From assembly GCA_002162095.1 (NCBI GenBank), contig CP021424.1:62001-126000 (forward strand): a stretch of 64,000 bases of DNA, given 5' to 3'. A program made the position numbers and the translations under genes. The notes under the pieces were generated by a model, which did no database searches, had not been told where the DNA came from, and saw nothing but the letters and a program-made list of their open reading frames with translations. This DNA comes from Armatimonadetes bacterium Uphvl-Ar2 (GTDB taxonomy: Bacteria > Armatimonadota > Fimbriimonadia > Fimbriimonadales > Fimbriimonadaceae). How positions within the stretch are numbered: position 1 is the stretch's first letter; every line of letters begins with the position of its first letter. This document shows, piece by piece, positions 1 through 6,008 of this stretch.

Positions 1-594
1 CCGGGACTGCAACCGGAACGCTTACCCAAGGGGGCGGGCTTCCTGCTCAAGCCAGGCGCGCGCATCGTGATGCAAGTGCACTACAGCAAGTCCGGGCGTG
101 AGGAAGTGGACCAAACCAAAATGGCCCTCTACTTTGCCAAGGAGCCGGTGACCATGCCGACGGAGATTGCCTGGCTGGCCAACCCCGCCATCCGCATCCC
201 GGCGGGCAACGCCAAGGTCGAATTCAAGCAGACCATCCCACTGCCGGTGGACGTCACGCTTTACAGCCTGATGCCGCACATGCACCTGCTGGGCAAGGAA
301 ATGCACGCCACGCTGATCCACCCGGACGGCACCCGCGAGCGCCTGATTTCGATCGACAAGTGGGACTTCAACTGGCAACTCAACTACATGCTGAAGGAAC
401 CCAAGCTGATCAAGCGCCGGAGCCGCATCGAAATCGTGGCGGTGTTCGATAACAGCGAGGACAACCCTTCGAACCCGAGTTCCCCGCCGCGCGAAGTGCG
501 CTGGGGCGAGGAGACCACCGACGAGATGATGTTGCTGGTCGCCGGGGTACACATTCACTTGCCGGGCGGGGCGCGCAGAGCGGGCTCCCTCTAG
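1..594 (+). CDS. Copper type II ascorbate-dependent monooxygenase-like protein, C-terminal part (5' truncated by window)
   Basis: The reading frame is open from base 1, so the N-terminus lies outside the window; 197 codons are visible. The visible part matches the C-terminal copper domain of the peptidyl-glycine/dopamine monooxygenase fold found in many environmental bacteria: an early MQVHY segment followed by a hydrophobic beta-rich stretch, the HxH copper motif in MPHMHLLGKEM, then an NWQLNY segment and a DNSEDNPSNPSSPP segment leading to WGEETTDEM. In the family these bacterial proteins are usually exported and often carry a cytochrome c-like N-terminal part, which cannot be checked here. 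Substrate unknown. It ends 5 bases before kdsB on the same strand, but no functional link to it is obvious. Confidence 0.8.
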   Translation, partial: PGLQPERLPKGAGFLLKPGARIVMQVHYSKSGREEVDQTKMALYFAKEPVTMPTEIAWLANPAIRIPAGNAKVEFKQTIPLPVDVTLYSLMPHMHLLGKEMHATLIHPDGTRERLISIDKWDFNWQLNYMLKEPKLIKRRSRIEIVAVFDNSEDNPSNPSSPPREVRWGEETTDEMMLLVAGVHIHLPGGARRAGSL

Positions 595-599
595 GCCGA

Positions 600-1346
600 G
601 TGAGTGAAACCTTGAGCGTAGTCGTTGTGATTCCGGCCCGAATGGGCGCAACTCGTTTCCCGGGCAAGCCGTTGGTGGATTTGCTCGGGAAACCGATGGT
701 CCAGTGGGTGTGGGAAGCCTGTACCAAGTCCGGGATTTCGTCAGAAATCTACATCGCCACGCCGGATGAGGAGATTCAGGCCGCCGCCGAGGGCTTTGGC
801 GCACGCGTCATCATGACTCGCCACGACCACGTGAGCGGTACCGACCGCATCGCCGAAGTTGCCACCAAGGTGCCGGGCGATATTTTCCTCAACGTGCAGG
901 GCGATGAGCCCTTGGTGCAAGCCGGCAGCATTGCCGCCGCCGCCCATCCCCTGGTGGCCGATTCCAGCCTGCAAATGGGCAGCGTATGGACGGAGTGCCC
1001 TGAGGATGAATACGACAACCCGGCCGTGGTGAAGGTGGTGACCGACCTCGCCGGCGATGCCCTTTACTTCTCCCGCCACTGCATCCCCTTCCCGCGCAAC
1101 CCGCGCGTCGGCATCGTGAAGAAGCACCTCGGCATCTACGCCTACCGACGCGAGCCGCTCCTGGCCTTCAACACCTGGGGCGCCAGCGAACTGGAGCGCA
1201 CCGAGCAACTGGAGCAACTGCGCTTTATGGAGCACGGGGTGCGCATCCGCATGAGCCAAGGCGCGGGCAGCGAACTGGCCGTGGATACGCCGGAGCAAGC
1301 CGATCAAGTCCGCGAAATGATGGCCGCGCGGGGCTACGGCGCGTAG
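600..1346 (+). CDS. kdsB: 3-deoxy-manno-octulosonate cytidylyltransferase (CMP-KDO synthetase)
   Basis: Activates KDO with CTP to give CMP-KDO, the donor for the inner core of lipopolysaccharide; cytosolic. The 248-residue protein has the family length and the nucleotidyltransferase N-terminus IPARMGATRFPGKPL (residues about 11-25), the VQGDEPL metal/nucleotide loop, and the conserved KHLGIYAYRRE and SELERTEQLEQLR segments. I chose the GTG start at 600 because the next residues match the family N-terminus directly. The presence of kdsB is one of the main arguments that this is an LPS-bearing diderm. Other LPS-type genes in the window (GT9, GT2, exporter) are not adjacent. Confidence 0.95.
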   Translation: MSETLSVVVVIPARMGATRFPGKPLVDLLGKPMVQWVWEACTKSGISSEIYIATPDEEIQAAAEGFGARVIMTRHDHVSGTDRIAEVATKVPGDIFLNVQGDEPLVQAGSIAAAAHPLVADSSLQMGSVWTECPEDEYDNPAVVKVVTDLAGDALYFSRHCIPFPRNPRVGIVKKHLGIYAYRREPLLAFNTWGASELERTEQLEQLRFMEHGVRIRMSQGAGSELAVDTPEQADQVREMMAARGYGA

Positions 1347-1418
1347 CCGTCCGCCCCCTCCTTGCGAGTACAATAAACGTTCGGAGCTCAAGGGCGAGCA
1401 ACGACCTTTTGATGCGCC

Positions 1419-3635
1419 ATGGAGGCACCCTCGGCCTACAACGATGCGCGAGTGGTTGCCGCTCGCGAGAAGCTTGCAAGCAAGTTCCGGGAGCTACGCC
1501 CGGACCACGAGGACACGCGCATTATGGCGGCCATGGACTTGGCCGCGACCGCCCACGATGGCCAATTCCGCCGCAGTGGCGAACCCTACGTCACCCACCC
1601 CGTTGAAGTCGCGCTGATCTGCCTCGAACTTCGGCTCGATAACGATGGCATCATCGCCGCCCTCCTCCACGATGTCATCGAGGACACCGAGGTCACCAAT
1701 GCGGAGGTGCGCGCCCAGTTTGGGGAGGACGTGGTGCAACTGGTGGAGGGCGTCACCAAGCTCGAAAAGGGCGTGCGGCTCGACGGTACTGCTAACCAGG
1801 CCGCCCGGGCCGAAACCCTGCGCGCCGCCGAGAGCCTGCGCAAGATGCTGATCGCGATGTCGCTCGACATCCGCGTGATGATCATCAAGTTGGCCGACCG
1901 GCTGCACAACATGCGCACGCTGGACAGCATGCCGTCCGATCGGCGCATCCGCATCGCGCAGGAGACTATGGATGTCTATGCTCCCTTGGCCGCGCGGCTC
2001 GGGATTTGGCAGATCAAGTGGCAGCTAGAAGACCTCTCGTTCAAGGTCTTGCACCCCAAGGAGTTTCGGGAAATCACCGAGGCGGTGGCGAAGTCTCGGC
2101 AGCACCGCGAAGACGAACTCAAGGAATCGATCCGGATTCTGAAAGAGCGGCTGGAATCCAAGGGCTTGCACAACACCCAGGTCATCGGGCGGCCCAAGCA
2201 CCTCTACAGCATCTTCAACAAGGTCGTCAAGCAGGGCATCCCGTTCGAGCAGATTTACGACCTCATTGCCCTGCGCGTCATCGTGAGTCAGCCTTACGAG
2301 TGCTATCTCGCGCTGGGCTACGTCCACGATCTGTGGCTGCCCATGCAGGGCTTGTTTAGCGACTACATCAGCGCCCCCAAGCCCAACGGCTACCAAAGCC
2401 TGCACACTAAGGTGATTGGCCCCCACGGCGAGCCGATCGAGGTGCAGATCCGCACCCGTGAAATGCACGAGATTGCGGAATACGGGGTGGCCGCCCACTT
2501 TGCATACAAAGAAGGCGAACGGGCCAATGTGCGGGGCGAGGCGATTGCGGAACTGCGCAAGCAGATTGCCGACTGGTCAAACGATTCCTCGAACTCGCGC
2601 GAATTCCTCAAGGCGGTCTCCACCGACTTTTTCAGCGAACAGGTGTTCGTGTTTACGCCCAAGGGCGACGTTTTGGACCTCCCTGCGGGATCGACTCCGA
2701 TTGACTTCGCGTTCCGGGTCCACACCGATCTCGGGCTCATCACGGTGGGCGCCAAGATCAACGGGCGCATTGTGCCGCTGAGCACCAAGCTCCAAAACGG
2801 GGACCGGGTGGAATTGGTGACCCGGCGTGACGCCCAGCCCAGCCTGGACTGGCTGGAGTTTGTGCAAAGTCAGCACGCCCGCAGCAAGATTCGGGCGTAC
2901 TTCCGGCGCCGCAACCGCGCCGAGAACACCTCGCGCGGCAAGGAAGCCATTGAAGCCGAACTGAAGCGGCTGGGGCTGGAACCCCGCGCCCTCACGGCGG
3001 ATGATTCCGTGCAAAAGGTGCTCGTCCACTTCAAGCAAGTGGACAACGTGGCCGACCTCTTTGCTCGGGTGGGTGAGGGCCTGGTTTCGGTGCAAAGCGT
3101 GGCCATGCGCCTGCGGGAGCTTGTGCGCCCCGAAGTCCCAGCCGAAGCCAAGGATCCCTTCCGGCTCAAAGGTAGCCGCGCGACCCAGGAGGCCCGCACC
3201 AGCATGGAAGGCGTGCTCTCGCGCCGGGCGCGCTGCTGCCTGCCCGTGCCCGGGGATGACGTTGTGGCCTATGTATCGCGGGGGCGCGGCTTGCTCATTC
3301 ACCGCCGGGTGTGCCCGGATGCTATGGCGCTCATGGACAAGGAGCCGGAGCGCATGACCGGCCTGGACTGGGAGCCCGACGACAACGTTTACGACGTGGT
3401 GCTCATCGTGGTCACCCTGAACCGACCGGGCTTGTTGGGTGAGATTTCGAGCCTGCTGGGTGAGCTAAAGACCAACATCAGCGCCGTGAAGGCCAAGACC
3501 GGCCCCACCGCCGAGATCAGCCTGCAGATTGACGTGCGCGACAGCAAGCACCTGCAGCACGTGATGAATCAGATCGGGCAGATGAGCGACGTGATCTCGA
3601 TTCTGCGGGCGTTCGGGCGGGGCAAATTTAAGTGA
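1419..3635 (+). CDS. rel: Bifunctional (p)ppGpp synthetase/hydrolase, Rel/SpoT family
   Basis: Makes and degrades (p)ppGpp, the stringent-response alarmone. The 738-residue protein has the full long-RSH architecture: an HD hydrolase domain with LLHDVIEDT (about residue 85), a synthetase domain with RPKHLYSIFNKV, YDLIALRVIV and GYQSLHT, the EVQIRT segment, a TGS domain starting VFVFTPKGDVLDLPAGSTP (about 415), a Cys-containing RARCCLPVPGDD region, and a C-terminal ACT domain starting LNRPGLLGEISSLL. The intact HD motif argues for a bifunctional enzyme rather than a synthetase-only RelA. ATG at 1419. dtd follows after 10 bases; this rel-dtd order is common in bacteria. Confidence 0.95.
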   Translation: MEAPSAYNDARVVAAREKLASKFRELRPDHEDTRIMAAMDLAATAHDGQFRRSGEPYVTHPVEVALICLELRLDNDGIIAALLHDVIEDTEVTNAEVRAQFGEDVVQLVEGVTKLEKGVRLDGTANQAARAETLRAAESLRKMLIAMSLDIRVMIIKLADRLHNMRTLDSMPSDRRIRIAQETMDVYAPLAARLGIWQIKWQLEDLSFKVLHPKEFREITEAVAKSRQHREDELKESIRILKERLESKGLHNTQVIGRPKHLYSIFNKVVKQGIPFEQIYDLIALRVIVSQPYECYLALGYVHDLWLPMQGLFSDYISAPKPNGYQSLHTKVIGPHGEPIEVQIRTREMHEIAEYGVAAHFAYKEGERANVRGEAIAELRKQIADWSNDSSNSREFLKAVSTDFFSEQVFVFTPKGDVLDLPAGSTPIDFAFRVHTDLGLITVGAKINGRIVPLSTKLQNGDRVELVTRRDAQPSLDWLEFVQSQHARSKIRAYFRRRNRAENTSRGKEAIEAELKRLGLEPRALTADDSVQKVLVHFKQVDNVADLFARVGEGLVSVQSVAMRLRELVRPEVPAEAKDPFRLKGSRATQEARTSMEGVLSRRARCCLPVPGDDVVAYVSRGRGLLIHRRVCPDAMALMDKEPERMTGLDWEPDDNVYDVVLIVVTLNRPGLLGEISSLLGELKTNISAVKAKTGPTAEISLQIDVRDSKHLQHVMNQIGQMSDVISILRAFGRGKFK

Positions 3636-3645
3636 GGGTGCTTCG

Positions 3646-4113
3646 TTGAGGGCGATTGTCCAGCGCGTGCAGTGGGCGCGGGTAAGCGTGGATGGCGCCG
3701 TGGTGGGGCATTGCGGCCCCGGGCTGATGGTGCTGGTAGCGGCCCACCGCGACGACACCCCGGCCGACATTGCCACCGTGGCCAAGCGGGTGGCCAATCT
3801 GCGCATTTTCAACGATGCTGAGGGCCGGATGAACCTGGCCCTGGCGGACCTGCCGCCCACTGAGGAACCCGAGATTTTAGCAATCTCGAACTTTACGCTC
3901 TACGGTGACACCACCCAGCGGCGGCCCAGCTTTGTGCTGAGTGCGCCGTATCAGCCGGGGGAGCGAGCGTTTGGCGAGTTCGTGGAGGCGCTGCGCGGGC
4001 ACGGCCGCACGGTGAGCACGGGCGTGTTCGGCGCAGACATGAAGGTGGAGCTGCTGAACGACGGCCCGGTGACGGTGATCGTGGATCAGGTTTCAGAGAA
4101 CAACCAAAGTTGA
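3646..4113 (+). CDS. dtd: D-aminoacyl-tRNA deacylase
   Basis: Hydrolyses D-amino acids mischarged onto tRNA. The 155-residue protein has normal DTD length and begins with the family signature MRAIVQRVQWARVSVDG; the TTG at 3646 is therefore taken as the start. The catalytic SQxTL-type motif is present as SNFTLYGD (Gln replaced by Asn), followed by the RRPSF segment, and the Gly-cisPro motif is present as DGPVT near the C-terminus. Probably co-transcribed with rel. A second, degenerate relative lies immediately downstream. Confidence 0.92.
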   Translation: MRAIVQRVQWARVSVDGAVVGHCGPGLMVLVAAHRDDTPADIATVAKRVANLRIFNDAEGRMNLALADLPPTEEPEILAISNFTLYGDTTQRRPSFVLSAPYQPGERAFGEFVEALRGHGRTVSTGVFGADMKVELLNDGPVTVIVDQVSENNQS

Positions 4114-4190
4114 TCTCCTATGTCAAAATCATTCTTAAGGGTTGCCGAGGAGAAGCTAGCGGTCTCAAAGTTTCCTGGACGGTGTTATAG

Positions 4191-4778
4191 ATGCAAGCCG
4201 TGATCTCAACCGTTAAATGGGCAAAGGCGAAAGTCGACGGGCAAGTCGTTGCCGAATGTGGCGTGGGGTACATCCTCTTGGTTGAGGGGCATGCTGAGGA
4301 TACGCCCGACATCTACGAGCTGATTTCGGAACGTGTCATCCACATGCAGTTGTTCTATGACTTTGAACGCCATGTGAGCGAGGGATTGTGGCAACTCCCG
4401 CCTACGGATGAACCTGAGATCCTTGCCGCGCCGTACTACTCCCTGCGAGACCCTGACTGGCGTTTCATGGGTTTTAAGGACCGATCCGAATATGAACCCC
4501 ATGACCGAGGAATCTCAGAACTCGTCACCATCCTCCGAGCCAAGGGTCGACGAGTGAGCATGGTCGAATTCGGCACGATGGTTGACTTGGAGTTCGAATC
4601 TACGCGCACAAGCGCCCAAATCGGGATAAAACCCAAGAAAAAGGCTGCCACAGACTCAAAGCCGAAGAAATCTAAGGACCCCCAAAAACACAAGACCCCT
4701 CCCGGACGGAAGGGGTACCTTATGCTTTCGGACTACAGGGAGGTCAGGAGTTCATCGCCGACCCGTCCGAAGGAGTGA
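4191..4778 (+). CDS. Divergent DTD-like paralogue with lysine-rich C-terminal tail, function unknown
   Basis: A 195-residue protein whose first 140 or so residues align end to end with the dtd product just upstream: the N-terminus MQAVISTVKWAKAKVDGQVV, the VGYILLVEGHAEDTP segment and the block LPPTDEPEILA are all recognisable. The functional motifs are gone: the SNFTL position reads APYYSL and the GPVT position reads MVDLEFES. Residues about 140-195 form a basic, low-complexity Lys/Pro/Ser tail. The gene is visibly less GC-rich than its neighbours. I infer a duplicated DTD fold that no longer has DTD activity, possibly a nucleic-acid- or ribosome-binding protein; an alternative is a decaying duplicate, though the frame is fully open. 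ATG at 4191. Confidence 0.75.
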   Translation: MQAVISTVKWAKAKVDGQVVAECGVGYILLVEGHAEDTPDIYELISERVIHMQLFYDFERHVSEGLWQLPPTDEPEILAAPYYSLRDPDWRFMGFKDRSEYEPHDRGISELVTILRAKGRRVSMVEFGTMVDLEFESTRTSAQIGIKPKKKAATDSKPKKSKDPQKHKTPPGRKGYLMLSDYREVRSSSPTRPKE

Positions 4779-4877
4779 GTTACTAAAACCCACGACCTCC
4801 CTTGCGCATGTTACTGTCACTCATTTGATTGAATGCCACCTCCTTTCTAGTATTAGCCCGCCTCGCGCGATGCGGAC

Positions 4878-5588
4878 TTACTTATCTGTACGTTCGGCGG
4901 GGGTGGAAAGTGTCTCGTTCTTCTTCTCCGCCTCATCCAGCCGCTGAATCGCCGACTCAAAACTGCGCCGCACGGCCCCGGGCGTCATCGAGAGCGCGGT
5001 CATCGCCTTGGGGTGCCCCACCACGATGCTGAGCGACTGCGAACCTTCTGGCTCAAAGGCGTTGCCAATCATCAGCACACTGCCGCCATCGCGCCAAAAC
5101 GCATAACGGAACTTCCCTTGCCCAATCGTCTCGTCGGGATAACCGAAGTAACCGGAATAGCGGTCGATGGCGGACTGCACCGCATTGTCTTCCACCCCTT
5201 CTTCGGTCGTCATGGCCAGCACGATTCGGTCTTCCAGGCTAATCACCGAGGCCGATACCGCCGTATCCGTCCAACCCCGGCTCACAAACGTTTTGCCAAA
5301 CCCGGGGGGCACATCGCTGGAATCGTAAGCCCGGCGCGGCTTGGGCAAATACGCCCGGAAGTTGGCAATGCTATCGCCCACCGCTAGCCTTCCGCCTTCG
5401 GGCATCAGGGCAAGGCGCGTGTCGCTAAAGTCACCCGGATACTCAAGATCGAGTTCCGGTTGCGTGCTCTTGGCCACCGAGACGGGCTCCGGAGCGGCGC
5501 AACCCGCCCCCAACCCCGCCACCAGGCTAATCAATAGCCAGGATGCGGTAGCGCTGGGTGCCGGCCGGGGCTTCCACTTCAATTTCAT
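4878..5588 (-). CDS. Predicted lipoprotein, function unknown
   Basis: A 236-residue protein starting at ATG 5588 with a lysine/arginine-rich n-region, a short hydrophobic core WLLISLVAGLGAG and a lipobox ending in Cys (LGAGC, about residue 30), so it is probably a lipoprotein. The mature part is soluble-looking, with no family I recognise; it ends in a charged helix (RRSFESAIQRLDEAEKKNE). The chosen start lies inside the 3' end of greA, giving a 62-base overlap in another frame; a TTG further in would remove part of the overlap but also the basic n-region. It is probably co-transcribed with greA. Confidence 0.65.
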   Translation of the reverse strand: MKLKWKPRPAPSATASWLLISLVAGLGAGCAAPEPVSVAKSTQPELDLEYPGDFSDTRLALMPEGGRLAVGDSIANFRAYLPKPRRAYDSSDVPPGFGKTFVSRGWTDTAVSASVISLEDRIVLAMTTEEGVEDNAVQSAIDRYSGYFGYPDETIGQGKFRYAFWRDGGSVLMIGNAFEPEGSQSLSIVVGHPKAMTALSMTPGAVRRSFESAIQRLDEAEKKNETLSTPAERTDK

Positions 5589-5991
5589 CGCCAACGTTTT
5601 TCTCCAAGAGGGCCGCGCCCATCGGTGAGGTAATGCTGATTCTATCCTCCAGGGGGTCCGCTTCGAAGGCTCCCACGAGGTCAATAGTGAGTTCGCCACC
5701 CCATTCGAGGTCAGCGAGCTTGACCCGCGAGCCCAAGTGCGCGCCGCTCATCTGCGAGGGATCAATGACCTTTGCAAATTGGAGCGTCTTTTCGAGATCG
5801 GCAATGCGGCCTTCCAGGCGCTGTTGGTTGAGCTTGGCCTCGTGGTACATCGCGTTCTCGCGGAGGTCACCGTGCGATTTGGCTTCGCGGATGTTATCGG
5901 CGATGCGCGGACGCTCCACCATCTTCAACATCTCCAGCTCCTTGGCGAGCTTGTCGTACCCTTCACGACTTAGCATCACTTCGTCGGCCAT
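5527..5991 (-). CDS. greA: Transcription elongation factor GreA
   Basis: Rescues backtracked RNA polymerase by stimulating transcript cleavage. The protein (about 154 residues) has the N-terminal coiled coil beginning LSREGYDKLAKELEML, the coiled-coil tip region GDLRENAMYHEAKLNQ with the conserved acidic residues, and the C-terminal FKBP-like domain with DRISITSPMGAALLEKNVGDEI. I use the ATG at 5991, preceded by AGGGTG; a GTG two codons upstream (5997) is also possible. It is divergent from the glycosyltransferase gene at 6009 with only 17 bases between the starts. Confidence 0.95.
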   Translation of the reverse strand: MADEVMLSREGYDKLAKELEMLKMVERPRIADNIREAKSHGDLRENAMYHEAKLNQQRLEGRIADLEKTLQFAKVIDPSQMSGAHLGSRVKLADLEWGGELTIDLVGAFEADPLEDRISITSPMGAALLEKNVGDEIEVEAPAGTQRYRILAID

Positions 5992-6008
5992 AATCACCCT
6001 AGTCTAAC

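Follow-up and report, generated by a model that had tools for sequence, protein, structure and literature searches.

Behind a dtd gene, the window (the whole 64,000-nucleotide stretch of DNA analysed) carries a second DTD-like reading frame that has parted with the family's catalytic motifs and runs on into a Lys-rich tail. The question is what selection has kept here: the protein body, the tail, or something else written in the same DNA. The plus-strand features concerned are:

3646-4113, plus strand: dtd, D-aminoacyl-tRNA deacylase, TTG start (PF02580, TIGR00256, motifs ISNFTL and NDGPVTV)
4191-4778, plus strand: DTD-like paralogue, 195-codon ATG frame (ORF)
4191-4619, plus strand: paralogue body, residues 1-143, catalytic motifs lost (PF02580, dN/dS, AF2/Foldseek)
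4620-4778, plus strand: C-terminal tail with the stop codon, Lys-rich over residues 144-164 and antisense to an RNA gene over residues 165-195

A DTD-like reading frame without the DTD active-site motifs

The original prediction described a DTD-like gene lying directly after dtd and aligning with it over the DTD fold, and the profile searches bore this out: residues 3-135 matched the Pfam profile PF02580 at 31.6 bits (cut-off 25), residues 2-134 were 39% identical to the genome's own dtd (tblastn, E 5e-25), and the predicted LPPT(D/E)EPEILA block was present. The neighbouring dtd, which is the likely parent, scored 154.3 bits with PF02580, a profile matched in 78 of 85 genomes of the family, and 133.6 bits with the NCBIfam model TIGR00256, whose equivalog cut-off it exceeded while the paralogue remained below it (31.1 vs 101.5 bits).

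According to passages of PMC5802732, the DTD active-site motif is -SQFTL-, and a second motif, -NXGPVT-, carries a cross-subunit Gly-cisPro that is contacted by Arg7, the Gly-Pro motif crossing into the site of the partner subunit. In a 60-row alignment of DTDs drawn from genomes of the family, with the two paralogues each entered twice, ISNFTL of dtd was replaced by APYYSL in the paralogue and by VPYYAV in its orthologue in genome G001, and NDGPVTV by STRTSAQ and PMSSVAL, respectively. The predicted loss of both catalytic motifs was thereby confirmed, and Arg7 of the genome's own dtd has gone as well, being Thr7 in the paralogue. Family DTDs carried SN instead of the textbook SQ in 46 of the 60 rows and SQ in 10, with neither in the four paralogue rows. 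The sole row besides the paralogues that was flagged by the motif script, L034 from the 1.5-Mb genome G060, read ISNYSL and lacked Gly-Pro; it is the single DTD of that genome and is apparently degraded.

An AF2 model gave a DTD-like body with pLDDT mostly between 70 and 94 and a tail predicted to be disordered (pLDDT <50 from residue 151), and the best Foldseek match of the model was E. coli DTD (1jke, TMt 0.81), although the input alignment consisted mostly of DTDs (four), so that the DTD fold was favoured in the prediction. With that bias, retention of the DTD fold by the paralogue is predicted. Homology over residues 2-134, the predicted fold and the position directly after dtd thus tie the paralogue to DTD (PF02580, TIGR00256), whereas the missing SQFTL-type motif, Gly-cisPro and Arg7, and a score under the TIGR00256 cut-off, set it apart. 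The Animalia-specific tRNA deacylase ATD is likewise a DTD-fold paralogue with changed motifs, but, in the passages of PMC5802732 that describe it, ATD retains both PQATL and TNGPYTH as well as deacylase activity, while the window paralogue has neither motif. No clear Shine-Dalgarno element was found for the paralogue, and no promoter was detected in a scan of positions 4000-5200.

Selection on the body and origin of the gene

The orthologue in G001 lies directly after dtd and is 80% identical along its whole length; it was the one gene recovered when an orthologue with the same motif losses and tail was sought, as the original prediction had proposed. Between the window's own genome (G000) and G001, the 143 body codons showed 49.8 changes per 330.3 replacement sites and 47.2 per 98.7 silent sites (dN/dS 0.22; Fisher p = 1.8e-10), an estimate that comes from one genome pair, because only two orthologues exist, and from a dtd-to-body stretch that is possibly a recombination tract in that pair. 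The ratio was 0.07 for the first 48 paralogue codons and 0.063 for dtd, the frame was intact in both genomes, and the net insertion between them amounted to two whole codons.

Judged by these substitution counts, the paralogue body is kept by purifying selection and is not decaying, in line with the earlier argument that the open frame speaks against simple decay. A pseudogene on its way out, with a frame open by accident, would accommodate the lost motifs, the fast evolution, the low GC3, the weak translation signals and the presence in just two genomes, but it is quite improbable in view of the body dN/dS, on which decay was rejected, the still lower ratio in the N-terminal 48 codons and a net length change in whole codons that leaves both frames intact.

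The paralogue was carried by 2 of 291 genomes of the phylum (E 1e-18) and was absent at the same threshold from G002, of the same genus, and from the other 288. In a tree of 56 rows, from which all L075 and L076 rows were dropped, so that duplicate paralogues and possibly the G001 dtd are out, the paralogues joined the branch of their own genus's dtd with moderate support (93/76) and on a very long branch. Because so few genomes have it and the tree places it with the genus's own dtd, the paralogue is, on this phylogenetic evidence, young, and a tandem duplication of dtd followed by fast change is the simplest reading of its origin. As had been predicted, its GC content is lower than that of its neighbours (0.544, with GC3 0.64, vs 0.652 in dtd and 0.626 in relA), a composition that fits relaxed codon use or an outside origin alike; in the tree the paralogue is closest to the dtd of its own genus. 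A plasmid origin was tried by tblastn against a plasmid collection and gave no match. In the LPP(T/S) block (window 3850-3880 and 4395-4425; L004), dtd and paralogue share T in G000 and S in G001, and this agreement within each genome could reflect gene conversion, co-variation or chance.

Conservation of the tail

The tail runs from about residue 143 for ~52-53 residues and holds 12 Lys; the original prediction was right about its Lys-rich character, and its length is 53 residues, not 55. Its conservation is that of the surrounding backbone. Across positions 4628-4925, G000 and G001 differed at 4 of 298 positions, coding and non-coding alike, with no difference after the stop codon, and the changes within the tail were two synonymous and two non-synonymous, so that they give no evidence of protein-level selection on it. 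DNA identity between the two genomes, taken in 150-base steps, was 93-99% over positions 1-3600, 70-91% across dtd and the paralogue body, 98% in the tail and intergenic DNA, and 92-100% from 4651. The divergent tract (~3630-4627, vs L066), comprising dtd and the paralogue body, starts right after relA and, from this identity profile, is likely an allele replaced through recombination in one lineage. Of the dN/dS check that had been suggested for the gene, the part concerning the body thus came out in favour of purifying selection, whereas conservation of the tail could not serve as evidence of protein function.

The last 31 tail codons are antisense to a conserved minus-strand RNA gene. A block matching window positions 4728-4804 also stands right after dtd in G002, where the same plus-strand frame runs into TAA; since the block persists there without the paralogue, something else accounts for its retention. 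These observations bear on the proposal that the tail is a real, selected basic extension and the paralogue a protein of DTD fold that binds tRNA or rRNA. Two replacements in 52 tail codons and the density of Lys would agree with it, but silent and non-coding sites are equally conserved, the final 31 codons oppose an RNA gene that is conserved without the paralogue, and the tail is predicted to be disordered. We consider this proposal unlikely and dropped the RNA-binding domain as the best reading; the original view of a Lys/Pro/Ser tail selected as an RNA-binding addition did not survive the comparison of silent sites. More generally, a protein tail can look conserved when what is conserved is an RNA gene on the opposite strand.

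A conserved structured RNA on the minus strand

~4846 to 4685, minus strand: conserved structured RNA gene, antisense to the paralogue 3' end (R1/R2 matches, fold z; model core 4726-4846)
4836-4846, minus strand: Shine-Dalgarno-like element AAAGGAGGTGG (aligned in 47 rows)
4783-4824, minus strand: micro-ORF MSDSNMRKGGRGF-stop, just past the paralogue's stop codon (translation)
4794-4802, minus strand: hairpin stem P1, 5' strand, AGGGAGGTC (covarying pairs)
4737-4745, minus strand: hairpin stem P1, 3' strand, GACCTCCCT (covarying pairs)
4695-4716, minus strand: terminator-like hairpin closing the RNA, with a T-rich tail to ~4685 (terminator scan)

Relative to shuffled sequences, the fold z of the minus strand was -2.65 in the window and -3.58 in G002, vs +0.21 for the plus strand. 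Model R1, built from three members of the genus, matched 47 of the 113 genomes of the order at E 0.05, one copy each, and model R2, built from those 47 copies, matched 80 of the 291 phylum genomes at E 0.01, again with a single copy per genome; 54 of these genomes belong to the order and 26 lie outside it. R2 had no match in 59 of the 113 order genomes and in most of the phylum, and the RNA is therefore often lost or beyond the model's reach. When 84,980 named species were scanned with a sequence pattern, 43 stretches were returned, 42 of which match R2; by title, 37 are Armatimonadota, five unlabelled bacteria and one, the stretch without an R2 match, Chloroflexota.

None of the 4227 families of Rfam 15 reached its gathering score at the window locus or at the 14 homologous loci, out of 47, that were included. 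The best Rfam score at the locus, and the extent of the likeness, was that of the Pseudomonas rnk leader RF01772 (25.1 bits, gathering 55, E 0.22), which had no match in the 14 other loci and was set aside as chance. The tmRNA model RF00023 did not match the locus, and the tmRNA of this genome lies elsewhere (C1:922886-923236); nor was the locus matched by the 6S RNA model RF00013. The 6S model found nothing in the genome itself, a single contig, at E 0.001, a model that matches only 5 of 14 control genomes. In searches of the open PMC literature on Armatimonadota or Armatimonadetes, none of the papers listed reported such an RNA in its title or abstract opening. From these model matches, the RNA appears to be a member of a family that is spread across Armatimonadota and that, at the loci compared with Rfam, corresponds to no Rfam family.

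Secondary structure

Counted on copies that were picked by models holding these stems, which favours the counts for both P1 and P2, all 7 of the 7 counted P1 pairs changed on both sides among the 47 aligned copies, and 98.2% and 95.5% of cells in the two P1 segments were paired. The named structure had 73 both-side-change cells vs 22.3 after shuffling, with 0 of 500 shuffles reaching 73. In the inner stem P2, which was read without an alignment after 2 of the 80 sequences without the AUGAA core had been dropped, the second position (X2-Y2) was paired in 70 of 78 sequences (maximum of 1000 shuffles, 58) and the third in 55 of 78 (shuffle maximum, 46). By eye, GC-rich terminator-like hairpins also stand 3' of other copies of the RNA. 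An extra helix P0, joining the Shine-Dalgarno region to the stretch before P1, was counted and found unsupported, the chosen columns being mostly gaps. A pseudoknot UUCGGAC/GUCCGAA is present in the genus and by eye in no other genus, and no claim is made for it.

The micro-ORF and its signals

In 79 of the 80 copies, a frame of 10-15 codons begins at the first ATG that follows a GGAGG-type Shine-Dalgarno element; its stop falls on the core UUUUAR or 7-11 bases before it and is UGA in 3 of the 79; in the 80th copy, L161, the frame is open with TTG at the equivalent place. The encoded peptide usually ends in GGxGF-stop in the window's order and mostly in SQRGDxxG-stop elsewhere. Length differences in whole codons across many lineages argue for translation of the micro-ORF, as far as sequence can tell. 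Programmed frameshifting or stop read-through at GGGUUUUAG was rejected because the downstream frames are not conserved (few copies, by eye).

A TTGAC...TAnnnT promoter occurred within 75 bases upstream in 15 of 32 second-set copies vs 15 of 3200 random stretches, one upstream stretch having been excluded as too short. In the first set, from the window's order, it was found in 1 of 47 copies, and the order's promoter, if any, is therefore of another kind.

Gene surroundings

4878-5699, minus strand: lipoprotein-like gene, same strand as the RNA and upstream of it (ORF as listed, with the true start probably internal)
5527-5997, minus strand: greA, likewise on the RNA's strand and upstream

No gene was constant around the RNA among the 80 loci; the names greA, kdsB, relA and mraZ/rsmH-like are assignments made from sequence. 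The lipoprotein-like gene lay upstream on the RNA's strand at 34 of the 80 loci and greA at 45, with greA downstream at 4; kdsB followed on the same strand at 15, all among the 47 first-set loci. Throughout the window's genus the RNA is oriented head-on against dtd, and in the window no gene follows it on its strand; in one distant group mraZ/rsmH-like genes lie downstream.

The frequent upstream greA could mean that the minus-strand element is no more than the 3' end and terminator of a greA-lipoprotein unit, with the micro-ORF a chance frame. Such a unit hardly accounts for the TTGAC/TAnnnT promoter of the second-set copies, for the loci with greA or the mraZ/rsmH-like genes downstream, for a micro-ORF that is present in nearly every copy with lengths differing by whole codons, or for the covarying stems P1 and P2, and we hold it to be very doubtful.

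In leader-peptide attenuators a strong Shine-Dalgarno element, a micro-ORF and a terminator stand in series, and the RNA has the same series of elements but no constant downstream gene. That it might attenuate the gene behind its terminator, such as kdsB, draws on this usual plan and on the kdsB genes next in line at 15 of the 47 first-set loci; with the RNA head-on to dtd in the window's genus and varied neighbours elsewhere, this reading is highly improbable, and attenuation of kdsB itself was rejected because kdsB is downstream at just 15 of 80 loci. The want of a constant neighbour makes action in trans or through the peptide likelier than attenuation.

The dual-function small RNAs SgrS/SgrT and VcdRP are, in the excerpts that describe them, likewise short structured transcripts with a reading frame. 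Set against those excerpts, the Armatimonadota RNA, which is known from sequence, differs in its 10-15 codons, its phylum-wide single-copy occurrence and, in the window's order, a start-to-stop placement tied to the hairpin.

Proposed explanation

The reading that we favour, with a probability of roughly 0.7, is that a constrained DTD pseudoenzyme is superposed here on a translated small RNA of the opposite strand, the tail being a run-on of the frame past the DTD fold. The paralogue would be a tandem dtd duplicate kept by selection after losing the features of the D-aminoacyl-tRNA site (SQ/N-F-T-L, Gly-Pro and Arg7), a recent case, on this account, of a proofreading enzyme turned pseudoenzyme under constraint. 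It would most likely act through its remaining fold, either by pairing with the catalytic DTD or by holding the tRNA 3' end without hydrolysis. Because the DTD Gly-Pro crosses into the partner's site, damage to both sites would be expected in a heterodimer of DTD with the paralogue, and in this way the paralogue could be a brake on DTD.

The RNA, for its part, would be a stand-alone gene that combines a strong Shine-Dalgarno element and a micro-ORF with a terminator and a long hairpin whose pairs covary. Since the micro-ORF codes within the 5' strand of this hairpin in copies from the window's order, a ribosome translating it must open the hairpin. The RNA most likely works as a small RNA that is translated, with its fold or its peptide dependent on that translation. 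Past the DTD fold, the paralogue frame would first encode a short Lys-rich segment and then continue antisense to the 3' half of the RNA, and the two overlapping transcripts might regulate one another. The occurrence, in several classes of a little-studied phylum, of a structured RNA that is single-copy and has a conserved micro-ORF would point to a basic function not yet described.

More tentatively, and at somewhat less than even odds, the RNA may found a new Armatimonadota-specific family of translated riboregulators in which the speed of translation or termination sets the fold and action in trans. The ribosome would load on the near-perfect Shine-Dalgarno element, read the 10-15 codons and terminate on reaching, or immediately ahead of, a hairpin core that contains UUUUA and AUG; the antisense dtd duplicate would perhaps be controlled by the RNA.

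Inspection by eye also shows, in the window's order, a recurrent hairpin and AAATCTnAAC-like stretch just before the Shine-Dalgarno element; these may belong to the RNA or form a promoter specific to the order.
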